Shown: positions 38,082 to 54,068 of the stretch, piece by piece
Position numbering within the stretch: position 1 is the stretch's first letter
Layout of the letters: every line of letters starts with the position of its first letter
Origin: Haloferax marinum
GTDB lineage: Archaea > Halobacteriota > Halobacteria > Halobacteriales > Haloferacaceae
Reading direction: 5' to 3'
DNA: 64,000 nucleotides
NCBI RefSeq assembly: GCF_009674625.1
Contig: NZ_WKJQ01000001.1
Coordinates: forward strand, 2,418,001-2,482,000
Notes under the pieces: generated by a model
What the model was told of the DNA's origin: nothing
Seen by the model: the letters and a program-made list of their open reading frames with translations, nothing else
Database searches by the model: none
Program-made: the position numbers and the translations under genes

Positions 38082-38876
38082 TTATCCCAGTTTGTCGTAG
38101 GTCTGCTGCTGGGACTTCCAGTAGAGGAACCCACCTGCGAGCAGGCCGACGAGGAGCAAGCCACCAGCCGCGTAGATGAGCAACTGGGTGGTCTGGCTCG
38201 ACTGCTTTGCCTGGTTCGCCTTCGTCTCTGCGTCCTCAGCGAGGTTCGACGCGAGGCCGAACTCTTCGCCTTCGAAGGCTTCCACAGCGTTGTTGAGTTG
38301 GTTCTGTGCGTCCTGCGTGTTCGAACCACCGGCAGCGGCGATGGCCGCCTTCGCACTGTCGAGGCTGTCGCGTGCGGCGGCACTCTCGTCCGTGTAGTAG
38401 TGGGCCGACCACGAGTCGATATCGTTACTGGAGCCACCTTCGCGGGTCTGGTTGAGCGTCATGACGGTGAACGTCTGTGCCGGGTCGTAGGTGTAGTTCT
38501 CGACCTTGGGCACCGTTCCGGTCACCGAGACTTCGACTTCACTGGTTCCGTCGTCGGCGACGACGTCTGCACCCGTGAAGTTCTGCCCGTCGAAGGACTG
38601 CTGGTCGACTTTCGCGCCCGTCTGGTCGTAGTACGTGACGGTCCACGTGACGTCCTCGAGTTCAGTCTCGCCCTGGAGACTCCAGGATTCGAGTTGCGGG
38701 TTCTTGTACAGTTCGTCGAGTGTGACCGACGCAGTCACTTTCGAGCCGACCTGTGCCTCGGAGGGCGTGTCCTCGGAGGCGACGCTCACCGCACCTGCTG
38801 GTACTGCGACGACCGACAGGAGGACGACGAGCGCGAGAGCCAGCTTAGAAAAGTGACTCCAGTTCGTCCTCGTCAT
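38082..38876 (-). CDS. Secreted, single-pass membrane protein overlapping cetZ1
   Basis: The 264-residue protein has a signal peptide (residues 1-29, ending VPAGAVS) and an external beta-rich domain with N-glycosylation sites. A helical stretch of about 60 residues follows (SLDSAKAAIAAAGGSNTQDA, then NQLNNAVEAFEGEEFGLA), then a C-terminal membrane helix (LLIYAAGGLLLVGLLAGGFL) and a short cytoplasmic tail. Its start lies 32 bases inside the 3' end of cetZ1 in another frame, so it is translationally linked to the tubulin-like protein. It is the gene I recall as HVO_2203. A role anchoring or reading the CetZ1 cytoskeleton at the envelope is plausible but unproven. Confidence 0.75.
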   Translation of the reverse strand: MTRTNWSHFSKLALALVVLLSVVAVPAGAVSVASEDTPSEAQVGSKVTASVTLDELYKNPQLESWSLQGETELEDVTWTVTYYDQTGAKVDQQSFDGQNFTGADVVADDGTSEVEVSVTGTVPKVENYTYDPAQTFTVMTLNQTREGGSSNDIDSWSAHYYTDESAAARDSLDSAKAAIAAAGGSNTQDAQNQLNNAVEAFEGEEFGLASNLAEDAETKANQAKQSSQTTQLLIYAAGGLLLVGLLAGGFLYWKSQQQTYDKLG

Positions 38877-40032
38877 CGTTTATTAGGTTTTCCAGGTTGG
38901 ACTCGCTCTCTTGGCGAATCTCTTCGATGTTGTCTTGGGCTTCGATAGCTACCTGCTGTAGCTCCTTGATGCGGGGCACGTTTGCCACTCCAGAGAGGAG
39001 GATGACACTCGCGACCTTTCCAGCGCCCGGAATCGGGTAGTCGCCACCGCGAACTTCCATGGAACCGGTCTGCTCCTCGATCCATTTCCGCCCGCGCTCT
39101 ATGCCTTTCCGGTTCAGATGCTCCGGCGGGCCAGCGAGGACGAGCAGTGCGCGCTCGGCACCTTCTATCTCACAGGGGAGTGTCAGGCGGCCGAGTGCGG
39201 CCTTGCGGACGAGGCTGGTGATACGGTTCGTGGTGTGGGCGGTGTCGAGGTTGTCGTCGGGTTCGTCACCGCCGGTGAGTCGCGACAGGAGTCCACCGTT
39301 CTTCTTCTTCCGCGGTTCGACACCTTCGGAGGCGTAGCCGACGGTCGAGACGCCGCCACCGGCCAGCGTGTTGATAATCTCCGAAGAGTCGACGACGGAC
39401 TCTGCGACGTTCTGTCCCTCCTTGACTTCGCCAGCGCCGAAGAGGACGCCGAAGCGGTTGACGATCTCTTCGTTGATTTCGTCGTACCCACCTTGGACGG
39501 ACTCGCCGGTCTTTCGCCAGGCGTCGTTGTCGAACACGAGGAGATTGTCGACCTCGCGGACGAACGTCTGGAACGACCGCGCGGCGTTCAGGGTGTAGAT
39601 GCCACCCTCGTCGGACCCAGGCAGGATGCCGAGGCCGTAGACGGGTTCGGTGTAGATTCGTTTGAGATGTTTCGCAAGGACAGGCGCACCGCCGGACCCG
39701 GTGCCACCACCGAGACCGGAGACGACGAGGAAGGCGTCGACTTCGTGGACGGGGATGCTATCGATTGCACCCTGTACTTCGTCGATGTCTTCCTCGGCAA
39801 TCTCCGCACCGAGTTCGTTGTCCGCACCGACACCATGTCCCTTTACGCGGGACTGGCCGATGAGGACGCGCTGGTCCTTCGGGATGTTCTTCAATCCAAG
39901 CAAGTCGGCTTTCGCAGAATTAACTGCGACTGCTGCGCGAACGATACCGGCGTTTCGTTCGCGGTCGTACTCGACGAATTTGTCGACTACTTTTCCCCCG
40001 GCTTGCCCGAATCCGATCATTGCGAGCTTCAT
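38845..40032 (-). CDS. cetZ1: Tubulin-like protein CetZ1
   Basis: The 395-residue protein has the tubulin/FtsZ GTP-binding signature GGGTGSGG starting at residue 108 and the N-terminal MKLAMIGFGQAGGKVVDKF strand-loop of CetZ proteins. The T7 region (LFGAGEVKEGQNVAE) keeps an acidic residue for GTP hydrolysis in the neighbouring subunit. CetZ1 in H. volcanii drives rod-cell formation and normal motility. Gene order (cetZ1, secreted membrane protein, cofC, cofG) matches the H. volcanii locus from memory. The C-terminal Asp/Glu-rich helix is short (NDDEDELESLF). It should act as a polymerising cytoskeletal protein at the inner membrane. Confidence 0.93.
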   Translation of the reverse strand: MKLAMIGFGQAGGKVVDKFVEYDRERNAGIVRAAVAVNSAKADLLGLKNIPKDQRVLIGQSRVKGHGVGADNELGAEIAEEDIDEVQGAIDSIPVHEVDAFLVVSGLGGGTGSGGAPVLAKHLKRIYTEPVYGLGILPGSDEGGIYTLNAARSFQTFVREVDNLLVFDNDAWRKTGESVQGGYDEINEEIVNRFGVLFGAGEVKEGQNVAESVVDSSEIINTLAGGGVSTVGYASEGVEPRKKKNGGLLSRLTGGDEPDDNLDTAHTTNRITSLVRKAALGRLTLPCEIEGAERALLVLAGPPEHLNRKGIERGRKWIEEQTGSMEVRGGDYPIPGAGKVASVILLSGVANVPRIKELQQVAIEAQDNIEEIRQESESNLENLINDDEDELESLF

Positions 40033-50765: not shown

Positions 50766-51935
50766 ATGAAATTAGGAGTCATTGGCGTCGGCAATGCCGG
50801 TAGCAAGATTGTCGACAAGATGGTCGAATTCGAATCGCTCACGAACCGCAAACTCTGTCGTCACGTGATGGTGATAAACACCGCACGGACGGACCTTACG
50901 AAACCGGACCACATCCCGGAAGACCGGCGGATTCTCATCGGAGATACACACCAGAAGGCCAAAGGCCACGGTGTCGGCGGCGACGTCGACGTCGGTGCCG
51001 AAGTCGCCAAGAACGACATGGACGAGATTCGACGCGCGTTCGACGACGTGGACATCCACGAAGTCGACGCCATCTTGGTCTGTGCGTCGCTCGGCGGCGG
51101 AACCGGAAGTGGTGCCGGTCCGGTCGTCATCAACGAACTGCAGAAGATGTACGACGAACCGGTGTACGGTCTGGGCGTCCTCCCCGGAAAGTACGAAGGT
51201 GGCCGCCCGGCCCTGAACGCGGCCCGGTCGCTCCAGTCGTTCGTCAACAACACGGACAACTTCATCGCCTTCGACAACGACGCGTGGCGCTCGAAAGACC
51301 AGACGGTCGGCGAGGGCTACGAAGGCATGAACCGCGAGCTGGCGACTCGTATCGTCACGCTCCTCGGCGCAGGCGAGTACGACGAACCGACCATCGCCGA
51401 GAACGCGATGGACTCCAGCGACATCATCCGCACCCTCGACACGGATGGTATCTCGTCGATTGGCTACGCGTCGACGTCGGTCGACAACAGCGACGGCTTC
51501 ATGAAGCGGTTCCGCGAGGACCACGAAATCGAAGACAGCTCGAACTCCGCAGCGAAGATAAACGGTCTCGTCCGCCGGGCCGTCAACTCTCGACTCACCC
51601 TCCCGTGCGAACCGTCGAGTGCGGACCGAGCGCTCATCGTGCTCTCTGGACCGCCGTCCGAACTCTCGCGGAAAGGCCTCGAGAGCGCTCGTGAGTGGAT
51701 CGAAAACGAAGTCGATACCGTCGAAGTCCTCGCTGGTGACGACCCCCGTGAGAACGCCAATGCGCTCTCTGCGGTGGTGTTGCTGTCGAACGTCACCCAG
51801 ACGCCGCGAATCGAGGCGATCCAGGAGCAGGCAGTCGCTGCGCAAGAGAAGATTGCCGAACAGGAGGCCGTCCGCGAGGAAGAGATTGCCGACCTGATCA
51901 CGGACAAAGACGGCAAAATCGACCCGGTCATCTGA
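50766..51935 (+). CDS. CetZ-family tubulin-like protein, first of a tandem pair
   Basis: The ATG at 50,766 gives 389 residues. The strand-loop MKLGVIGVGNAGSKIVDKMV and the GTP signature GGGTGSG at 110-116 place it in CetZ. The T7 region LGAGEYDEPTIAENAMDSSD keeps acidic residues. The C-terminal tail ends in a basic/acidic stretch (AQEKIAEQEAVREEEIADLI). It should bind GTP and polymerise like CetZ1, with which it shares length and layout. It belongs to a paralogue group different from CetZ1. Function is undescribed; cell shape or envelope work is inferred from the family. The next gene is a diverged CetZ 52 bases on. Confidence 0.9.
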   Translation: MKLGVIGVGNAGSKIVDKMVEFESLTNRKLCRHVMVINTARTDLTKPDHIPEDRRILIGDTHQKAKGHGVGGDVDVGAEVAKNDMDEIRRAFDDVDIHEVDAILVCASLGGGTGSGAGPVVINELQKMYDEPVYGLGVLPGKYEGGRPALNAARSLQSFVNNTDNFIAFDNDAWRSKDQTVGEGYEGMNRELATRIVTLLGAGEYDEPTIAENAMDSSDIIRTLDTDGISSIGYASTSVDNSDGFMKRFREDHEIEDSSNSAAKINGLVRRAVNSRLTLPCEPSSADRALIVLSGPPSELSRKGLESAREWIENEVDTVEVLAGDDPRENANALSAVVLLSNVTQTPRIEAIQEQAVAAQEKIAEQEAVREEEIADLITDKDGKIDPVI

Positions 51936-51987
51936 CCATGACTCCCGTGAACCGGGGGGGAACACACACCTCTCAGGGAGTGGTCCG

Positions 51988-53256
51988 ATGAAACTCGCAG
52001 TCATCGGAGTCGGTAACGCGGGTAGTCGCATCACCAATCAGATTCTGGACTTCGAGCAGTCGACCGGTCGAAACTTCTGTAACGGAAACACGTTACTCAT
52101 CAACTCGACCCCACCCGAGTTCGACGCTCCCGAACACGTCCCCGAAGAACGGCGACTGACGATTGGAGACGTCTACTGGGACGCAGATGGGTCAGATATC
52201 GACGGTGACCCCGACTTGGCGGCCGAAATCGCGCGCGAAGAGAAGAACGACATCATCCGTGCGTTCGACCTCATCGAGTTCCACGAGATAGACGGCATCT
52301 TGGTCGCTGCAGGACTCGGACGCGGAACCGGCGGCGGTGCCGGTGCAGTCGTCATCGACCAACTGAAGGAGATTTGTGACGACCCGATCTACGCTGTCGG
52401 GGTGCTCCCCAGCGACGCAGAAGGAGAGCAACCGGCACTGACCGCCGCTCGGACGCTCCAGTCGTACGTCGCCAAGGCCGACAACGTCATCGCCTTCGAC
52501 AACGACGAGTGGCAGGACGCAGACTCCGCAAGCGTGGGTCGTCTGGACGACTCTGCTGGCGAAGACGAGCGCGACGACACGACCGAAGACGACCACGACG
52601 TGGACGTCGAGTCGGTCGGGAGCGGGTTCGAGAACACGAACGTCGCACTGGCCGAACGCCTCGTCACGCTGTTCGCAGCAGGCGAGTTCCGGAACTCGAC
52701 AGTGTCCGAAAACCGGATGGACCCGAGCGACATCATCCGCACGCTCGACACCGGTGGCATCTCGTCTATCGGATTCGCTTCGAGCGACCTCAAACAAGCA
52801 GGCGGTGTCCGCTCGTGGGTTCGGTCGATGAGTACCCGGTTCTCTTGGATGCCTGACCCGGACTGGGCGTACGAAACCGAGACGGACGACGATGACGCGG
52901 CGACCGACGCGGCGAAAATCAACAGACTCGTCCGTGAAGCCGCGCAGTCGAAGTTGACGCTCCCGTGTGAGATTTCCAGCGCCGACCGGGCGCTCGTCGT
53001 TCTCACAGGGCCGTCTCGAACACTCTCCCGAAAGGGGTTCGAAGGCGGCCGATACTGGCTCGAACGAGAAGCGGACATCGTCGAGGTGATGGCCGGAGAC
53101 GAACCGAACGAAAAGTCGTCGTCGCTCACCACCGTGATTCTGTTCTCGAACGTCACCGACGTAGACAGAATCGAGGAGATACAGCAGACGGCTCTCGACC
53201 ATCAAGAATCCCTGCGTACCGACGGGGCGAAACTCGGGACGGCCGATTCCCAATGA
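51988..53256 (+). CDS. Divergent CetZ-family protein with altered GTP loop
   Basis: The 422-residue protein aligns over its length with the preceding CetZ but has GRGTGGGAG (residues 110-118) where the canonical tubulin signature is GGGTGSG. An acidic, low-complexity insertion of about 35 residues (near 175-210, with AGEDERDDTTEDDHDVD) lies before the T7 region, which reads LFAAGEFRNSTVSENRMDPS, so GTP turnover may be weak or absent. A plausible role is as a non-hydrolysing partner or regulator of the first CetZ. It overlaps the following membrane protein gene by 4 bases (ATGA). Confidence 0.85.
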   Translation: MKLAVIGVGNAGSRITNQILDFEQSTGRNFCNGNTLLINSTPPEFDAPEHVPEERRLTIGDVYWDADGSDIDGDPDLAAEIAREEKNDIIRAFDLIEFHEIDGILVAAGLGRGTGGGAGAVVIDQLKEICDDPIYAVGVLPSDAEGEQPALTAARTLQSYVAKADNVIAFDNDEWQDADSASVGRLDDSAGEDERDDTTEDDHDVDVESVGSGFENTNVALAERLVTLFAAGEFRNSTVSENRMDPSDIIRTLDTGGISSIGFASSDLKQAGGVRSWVRSMSTRFSWMPDPDWAYETETDDDDAATDAAKINRLVREAAQSKLTLPCEISSADRALVVLTGPSRTLSRKGFEGGRYWLEREADIVEVMAGDEPNEKSSSLTTVILFSNVTDVDRIEEIQQTALDHQESLRTDGAKLGTADSQ

Positions 53257-54068
53257 CTGACCCGATGGGCGGCGACTGGGACCGAACTCCGTGGTGGCTT
53301 CCGGCGTGGGTCGCGGCCATCGTCAGTGGCATGCGAGTCGACCTGCGGTGGTTGCACACGTCGTGGATGGATATCGTCTTCGCACGGGACCAAAGCAATT
53401 CGGTCGTCGAAAACCGGAAACCGGAGAGTACCGGCGGGGCCGCTGCCTATCACCTGTGGAGTGCTCTCGGTATGCTCGTTCTCACCGTGGTGTACCCACT
53501 GTTCGTGTTGGGGCTGGCGACTCGGTTCTACGCCCACCGAATCGACCGATTCACCGCGGGGCTTGGCTTCGCCGGCGTCGCGGTCTTTTCGGTCTTCGTC
53601 TGGGGCCTCTTCTCGGCAGCGACGTACATCTCTCCCATCGCGTTCGAGGGATTCGTCGCCGTCGTCGTTGCAGGTGTCGTGGCAACCATCTCTGCCGTTC
53701 TCGCACTGTACTTCAGACGTCTCGATGGGCGGGCGTCCACAGTCGTCGTCGCCTACCCGTTGGGCGTGACGGCTATCTTCCTTCCACCGGTCGTCGCATC
53801 GCTCTACTCACCGACGCTGGCGTCTATCGTCTTCCCGAGTTCGACGTCGCTCGCGATTTGGATTCTGAACAACATCCTCGACGTCGCAGGCATCGCCGCG
53901 TTCATCCGTGCCTCGTTCGAACTGCAAGGAGTCGCGTACGTCGGTATGTGGTTCTCCCTCGCGATTCCGGTCGGCTGGTTCCTCGGTAGCCTCGTCACGC
54001 TCGTCGACGGCGTGCGGGACTCGGGGGGACCGCACCATGTCGACGACGGCGGGTCCAAGTTGTACTGA
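53253..54068 (+). CDS. Multi-pass membrane protein coupled to the cetZ pair
   Basis: The ATG overlaps the stop of the second cetZ gene, so the two are translationally coupled. The 271-residue protein has an N-terminal hydrophilic segment with Trp-rich face (GDWDRTPWWLPAWVAAIVSG), then about seven membrane helices between residues 65 and 255, and a short acidic tail. It resembles no family I can name. It is the natural candidate for a membrane anchor or target of the tubulin-like pair. The hydrophilic N-terminal 60 residues are on the expected cytoplasmic side. Confidence 0.75.
   Translation: MTDPMGGDWDRTPWWLPAWVAAIVSGMRVDLRWLHTSWMDIVFARDQSNSVVENRKPESTGGAAAYHLWSALGMLVLTVVYPLFVLGLATRFYAHRIDRFTAGLGFAGVAVFSVFVWGLFSAATYISPIAFEGFVAVVVAGVVATISAVLALYFRRLDGRASTVVVAYPLGVTAIFLPPVVASLYSPTLASIVFPSSTSLAIWILNNILDVAGIAAFIRASFELQGVAYVGMWFSLAIPVGWFLGSLVTLVDGVRDSGGPHHVDDGGSKLY

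Follow-up and report, generated by a model that had tools for sequence, protein, structure and literature searches.

The 64,000-nucleotide stretch of Haloferax marinum DNA analysed here, which we call the window (assembly GCF_009674625.1, contig NZ_WKJQ01000001.1, positions 2,418,001 to 2,482,000), carries two tandem genes for tubulin-like CetZ proteins, designated CetZ-A and CetZ-B (A and B below), followed by a gene for a membrane protein, P0003. As shown below, A and B form a pair that is conserved and inherited together in haloarchaea. The parts of the locus are as follows, in window coordinates.

50766..51935, plus strand: CetZ-A, 389 aa, the slow-evolving CetZ, with the guanosine triphosphate (GTP) loops and the T7 aspartates D216 and D219 intact
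51988..53256, plus strand: CetZ-B, 422 aa, the fast-evolving partner, with the T7 aspartates D245 and D248 kept and a T4 loop reading GRGTGGG
52516..52623, plus strand: acidic insertion in CetZ-B, lying between T6 and helix H7 (residues ~177-212) and predicted to be disordered
52792..52908, plus strand: CetZ-B M-loop (residues ~269-307), which includes WVRSMSTRFSWM, a hydrophobic stretch free of acidic residues
53253..54068, plus strand: membrane protein P0003, 271 aa, six helices, its start overlapping the CetZ-B stop
53253..53315, plus strand: N-terminal extension of P0003 (about residues 1-21), found in the copies that follow CetZ-B
38857..40032, minus strand (approximate): CetZ1, a gene of its own ~11 kb distant, outside the unit and given for context

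Both CetZ genes lie where the original prediction placed them, and both exceed the cut-offs of the Pfam models Tubulin (PF00091, 33 bits) and CetZ_C (PF21011, 21.6 bits), with scores of 111 and 214 bits for A and 67 and 178 bits for B. The start of A was set at the ATG at 50766 on the basis of homologue starts, its open frame opening earlier. The TGA stop of B (53254-53256) overlaps the ATG of the membrane protein at 53253, giving the ATGA overlap that had been described, and P0003 itself matches no Pfam or NCBIfam family above cut-off. A TATA-like TTTATA is present 5' of A in the window and is absent from the 7 relatives compared. Besides two FtsZ-like genes, the genome encodes three CetZ proteins beyond A and B, namely CetZ1 in the window and two elsewhere; A and CetZ1 are 45% identical. 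In the six Haloferax genomes that have the pair, cetZ1 is encoded ~11-12 kb from it, on the other strand.

Orthologues of A, with 70-96% identity to the window protein, occur in 44 of 170 genomes of the family and in 11 of its 28 genera. The next CetZ matches in the same 170 genomes fall to 53-56% identity, and CetZ-A is thus a sharply bounded subfamily. A second CetZ, B, lies directly downstream on the same strand in all 44 genomes, at a gap of 4-143 bp, a count that, like the other pairing counts, starts from genomes holding A. Among these, B is incomplete at a contig edge in two (G034 and G163) and split in two frames in one metagenome assembly (G059). No second CetZ lies within 4 kb of any of the three fetched genes that rank next in identity (53-56%). 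When 392 genomes were drawn more widely from the order, 40 had A at 71% identity or more and 5 others gave matches at 57-58%; 19 of the 40 lie outside the family, and B is present at each of the 14 loci obtained from these. Similarly, a scan of named genomes returned 48 loci from several haloarchaeal families, including Natrinema, Halovenus, Halarchaeum, Halobacterium, Halorubrum, Halonotius, Halohasta and Halopenitus, and B stands beside A in 48/48 at a gap of 0-234 bp; the named loci and those of the order draw overlap as sets. In 294 genomes drawn from the phylum, the share outside the order not being shown, no match at E 1e-110 or better was found outside the order. Within Haloferax, A is absent from 9 of 15 genomes, where the best match has 46-48% identity.

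The genes flanking the pair vary by lineage, with the largest common neighbour cluster covering 5 of the 18 loci analysed, and pairs that lack the membrane gene have no conserved third gene alongside (18 of 28 loci analysed, the other 10 being left out as their A was missed by the gene caller). The conserved unit is the A-B pair. As a separate observation, Halorubrum amylolyticum (L159 / L078) has a third CetZ of 359 aa after the pair on the same strand, giving three CetZ genes in a row.

The phylogeny of the two proteins is equally well defined. In an IQ-TREE analysis of 28 A, 28 B and 13 other sequences, A and B each form a clade (100/99 for both) and the two clades are sisters (100/100). 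The joint clade is separate from CetZ1, from CetZ2 and from the three CetZ proteins at 53-56%, some long branches being flagged. Neither protein therefore belongs to the CetZ1 group, from which the joint clade stands apart with 100/100 support, as the original prediction had held for both. Both also fall outside CetZ2, whose own row in the tree is a long branch labelled by similarity to 4b45. The available part of PMC9856176 gives CetZ2 a short M-loop of 3-6 residues; the corresponding stretch in A and B has 24-44 residues, so that neither has the short CetZ2-type M-loop. A FastTree analysis of 131 rows agrees, with support of 0.998 for B and 0.873 for A.

Pairwise distances among the A proteins closely track those among their B partners (Mantel r 0.894 for 56 gene pairs, against a maximum of 0.164 in 2000 shuffles), and B changes ~3.7x as fast as A over the same 56 pairs. 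For 12 close pairs, the ratio of nonsynonymous to synonymous substitution rates (dN/dS) is 0.016-0.126 in A and 0.129-0.281 in B. B is under purifying selection; its values therefore point to a working gene under looser selection, and the idea that CetZ-B is a pseudogene was rejected on the same 12 pairs. To judge from the trees, A and B most likely arose from one old tandem duplication and were then passed on as a unit.

The asymmetry in rate is matched by an asymmetry in residues, for which 61 A and 56 B sequences were aligned, the B set leaving out four sequences below 330 aa (G034, G163, G059 and one Halovenus metagenome-assembled genome) and one with a stretch of N (L097). In A, the T4 loop reads GGG[T/S]GSG and the T7 aspartates D216 and D219 are present in 61/61. 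B keeps both T7 aspartates in 56/56. Ser115 of T4 is found in every A and in 22 of the 56 B (Gly in 20, Cys in 9, Ala in 4 and Thr in 1 of the others), Asn171 of T6 in every A and in 47/56 B, and the GTP-face loops T2, T3 and T5 are variable in B. The second T7 position (D219 in A, D248 in B) presumably corresponds, as placed by the alignment, to the catalytic residue E218 of CetZ1.

The altered GTP loop that had been predicted is real in the window, where B reads AGLGRGTGGG and A ASLGGGTGSG. As a key feature of the system, GRGTGGG was rejected: at the position of Gly111, B has Gly in 43/56, Ser in 7, Arg in 5 and Asp in 1, and all five Arg are from Haloferax. The Arg loop is thus a Haloferax trait, seen in the 5 full-length Haloferax B of the set. 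Separately, Halopenitus (L149, L151, L074, L080, L103) has an odd T4 loop in B, GSATGSG, where the A copy aligned reads GGGSGSG. The acidic insertion is likewise present, at less than the 35 residues claimed for it, since between the positions matching A175 and A186 the window B has 40 residues and A 12, making B ~28 longer. Inserts at T6-H7 occur in B of Haloferax, Salinigranum, Halobonum and several Natrialbaceae, and inserts at T3 in Halorubrum, Halonotius and Halohasta, long acidic tails being frequent with the latter.

A second distinguishing feature of B is its M-loop. A run of 12 residues with no Asp or Glu and at least 5 of L, I, V, F, W or M is found there in 48/56 B, in 0/61 A and in 0/11 other CetZ. 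With the rule unchanged, a held-out test gave 7/7 further B, four of which are close relatives of B already in the set, and 0/28 distinct M-loops of other CetZ. In Natrinema (L150, L153, L155) and Natrialbaceae, the B M-loop is a Trp-Leu-Pro repeat (WLPSWLPLPSWL), and in other lineages it takes the form of Leu-Arg helices. The AlphaFold model of B has a predicted local distance difference test score (pLDDT) of 81 and a predicted template modelling score of 0.81, with low confidence in the insertion (182-210, pLDDT under 50) and in part of the M-loop (286-302). The solved structure nearest to the model is CetZ1 (4b46), at a template modelling score of 0.94 by target length, and CetZ2 is also among the nearest.

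Relatives of the membrane protein occur in 128 of the 170 family genomes. Among the 44 genomes with A and B, a copy follows B on the same strand in 6 (five Haloferax, including H. marinum, and Salinigranum salinum), a copy stands tail-to-tail with B in 12, and 2 loci end at a contig edge. The three-gene block as originally drawn is therefore kept in those five Haloferax and in S. salinum, whereas 12 genomes have the tail-to-tail order and in 24 no such neighbour was found in the stretch fetched. Beyond the family, three Halarchaeum and one Halobacterium carry it tail-to-tail. Overall, the membrane gene accompanies the pair repeatedly but not always (18/44 genomes).

On a tree of 53 copies, the three placements (after B, tail-to-tail with B, or elsewhere) need only 2 changes, and the following and tail-to-tail groups each form a clade (100/100). 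No CetZ was found beside the 31 solo copies in the tree within the flanks fetched (1.5 or ~7 kb). One joint clade of both CetZ-linked groups is not rejected (approximately unbiased test, p 0.458), and recruitment may have happened once or twice. Two branches of the family thus go with the CetZ pair, each in its own gene order, which points to a functional link, although over half of the pairs lack the gene. The solo copies are often flanked by what look, by eye, like an aldo/keto reductase gene on one side and a DUF373-like one on the other (clusters common to 7/13 and 6/13 loci). The six following copies share a conserved, Trp-containing extra N-terminus of ~21 residues that the remaining 47 in the tree do not have, so that the N-terminus singled out in the original prediction is real and does contain Trp. 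The seven helices proposed with it come down to six by Kyte-Doolittle analysis of the window protein; the AlphaFold model (mean pLDDT 50) is too poor to settle the topology.

Alongside the directly observed pairing, co-inheritance, purifying selection, residue asymmetry and recurrent membrane gene, we infer physical contact between A and B, docking on the membrane and a cellular role. The reading that we favour, tentatively and at somewhat less than even expectation, is a two-subunit CetZ polymer in which A would be the GTP-driven subunit and B a modifying, membrane-docking partner. A would then be the conserved, GTP-binding subunit that forms the filament. B would have relaxed parts of its GTP face while retaining the T7 face, the one that completes the GTP site of a neighbouring subunit, and through it could enter or cap A filaments. 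Its hydrophobic M-loop stretch may bind the membrane itself or a protein within it and so tie A filaments to the membrane. With more reserve, we propose the fuller version, which is possible at best: an obligate two-tubulin CetZ cytoskeleton with a GTP-driven A polymer, a diverged B that docks on the membrane and lends its T7 catalytic face to A, and a dedicated membrane receptor that later joined in two lineage groups. Under either version, the six-helix protein would be a lineage-specific partner that joined the unit in two lineage groups; it is a candidate receptor of B or of the filament, and could act as an anchor. The cellular role may lie in shape, or in positioning a surface structure, as for other CetZs.

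Several results weigh against this interpretation. The M-loop rule was framed after the alignment had been seen, and the helical moment of the B M-loop is not above background (mean 0.51 versus 0.44, with a 95th percentile of 0.68); the data consequently favour a hydrophobic docking surface over a classical amphipathic helix. The entropy gain from A to B is no smaller in the T7/H8 stretch than in the loops of the GTP pocket (p 0.76), so that a region-wide loss of the GTP face with retention of the T7 face was rejected, the pattern holding for the named residues only. B mostly keeps a GGGTG loop and may bind GTP. Finally, 24 of the 44 A-B genomes have no membrane-protein relative beside the pair in the stretch fetched.

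The least unlikely of the alternatives is an alternating A/B heterodimeric polymer, like that of alpha/beta tubulin or BtubA/BtubB, in which both nucleotide sites would be filled and the B M-loop would serve lateral contacts instead of the membrane. The fixed pairing, the matched trees, the T7 aspartates in both subunits and the GGGTG of most B are all consistent with it, as is the role of the M-loop as the lateral-contact loop of tubulin given in the available part of PMC9856176. However, the ~3.7x gap in rate and the frequent inserts of B at T3 or T6-H7 are unlike equal subunits, and the M-loop stretch of B is hydrophobic and acid-free within acidic proteins. Rather doubtful is a regulatory B without membrane function, which would cap A filaments and use its T7 aspartates to set off GTP hydrolysis. 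The invariance of these aspartates beside variable T2, T3 and T5 loops would fit, as would the T3 or T6-H7 inserts of several lineages, but the M-loop stretch and the recurrent membrane gene are left unexplained, and the region-wide entropy fails to separate the two faces. It is improbable that A and B build separate structures, each with its own filaments like FtsZ1 and FtsZ2, and are adjacent for shared expression only. The distinct filaments of FtsZ1 and FtsZ2 offer a precedent. A further one, for Odinarchaeota, is in the accessible part of PMC12583498. Against it, the pair stays intact despite lineage-variable flanks, and the trees match. That B is a decaying copy of A with no function would account for its fast change and loose GTP-loop residues and is close to refuted, with B beside every A examined, dN/dS of 0.13-0.28 in 12 pairs and both T7 aspartates in 56/56. 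The original prediction had likened the genes to an active and a weak tubulin. As a conserved unit, a tandem pair with divided labour has good support; "weak tubulin" is too simple, because B keeps the T7 aspartates under that same selection.

Compared with the known systems, A and B resemble CetZ1 and CetZ2 (PDB 4b46 and 4b45; PMC9856176) in their Tubulin and CetZ_C domains and acidic T7 residues, with the shared fold seen in the model of B and the T4 signature constant in A but variable in B, and differ in forming their own clade, in tandem arrangement and in the hydrophobic M-loop of B, which is absent from the 28 distinct M-loops of other CetZ. As far as the available text of PMC9856176 (Brown and Duggin 2023) goes, a third, conserved and uncharacterised CetZ subfamily has members in diverse Halobacteria, CetZ3-6 of Haloferax volcanii fall in no clear group, and a second cetZ lies near cetZ1 in Halobellus limi and Natrialba magadii; that text describes no tandem pair, the word "tandem" giving 0 hits. 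The third subfamily may be CetZ-A. The quasi-tandem Halo.Tub genes (Santana-Molina 2023, PMC9871819) are likewise near-tandem haloarchaeal tubulin-like genes, but the accessible part of that paper describes them as CetZ-like, branching with tubulins or CetZ, in an unrelated genome context, whereas A and B pass the CetZ_C model. Archaeal FtsZ1/FtsZ2, including OdinFtsZ1/OdinFtsZ2, share with A and B the assignment of different tasks to two tubulin-family paralogues. In Odinarchaeota, according to the part of PMC12583498 available, OdinFtsZ1 attaches to the membrane via an amphipathic helix, its paralogue through SepF, which makes OdinFtsZ1 a precedent for direct membrane binding by one of two paralogues. 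In contrast to CetZ-B, these proteins are not CetZ, and the helix there is N-terminal, the candidate docking stretch of B being in the M-loop. BtubA/BtubB (with BtubC, in Prosthecobacter) and alpha/beta tubulin are obligate pairs, and A and B share with them a fixed, co-inherited gene pair; BtubA/B/C lie in one operon in the account available in PMC9871819. A and B differ from both in their very unequal rates and are known here as a gene pair, not as a 1:1 polymer.

Literature searches, with most subscription papers, supplements and the published CetZ tree outside their scope, found no report of the A-B pair. Most of what is known about CetZ function comes from H. volcanii. Because of this focus, and because 9 of 15 Haloferax genomes are without the pair, experiments may have passed over the most strictly kept two-gene CetZ unit of this analysis. 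The pair is a ready-made example of two tubulin-family paralogues that stay together yet evolve at very different rates, so that division of labour among tubulin subunits becomes testable in a genetically tractable genus, and it offers a candidate route for CetZ filaments to the membrane. Finally, a contig of the H. marinum genome outside the window (C3) carries two long frames with tubulin-like starts, ~8 kb apart (C3:8346 and C3:397 of G000; L008 and L009). The open frames are of 947 and 896 aa, one above the Pfam Tubulin cut-off and the other below, and they may be of the large quasi-tandem tubulin-like kind described in the accessible part of PMC9871819.

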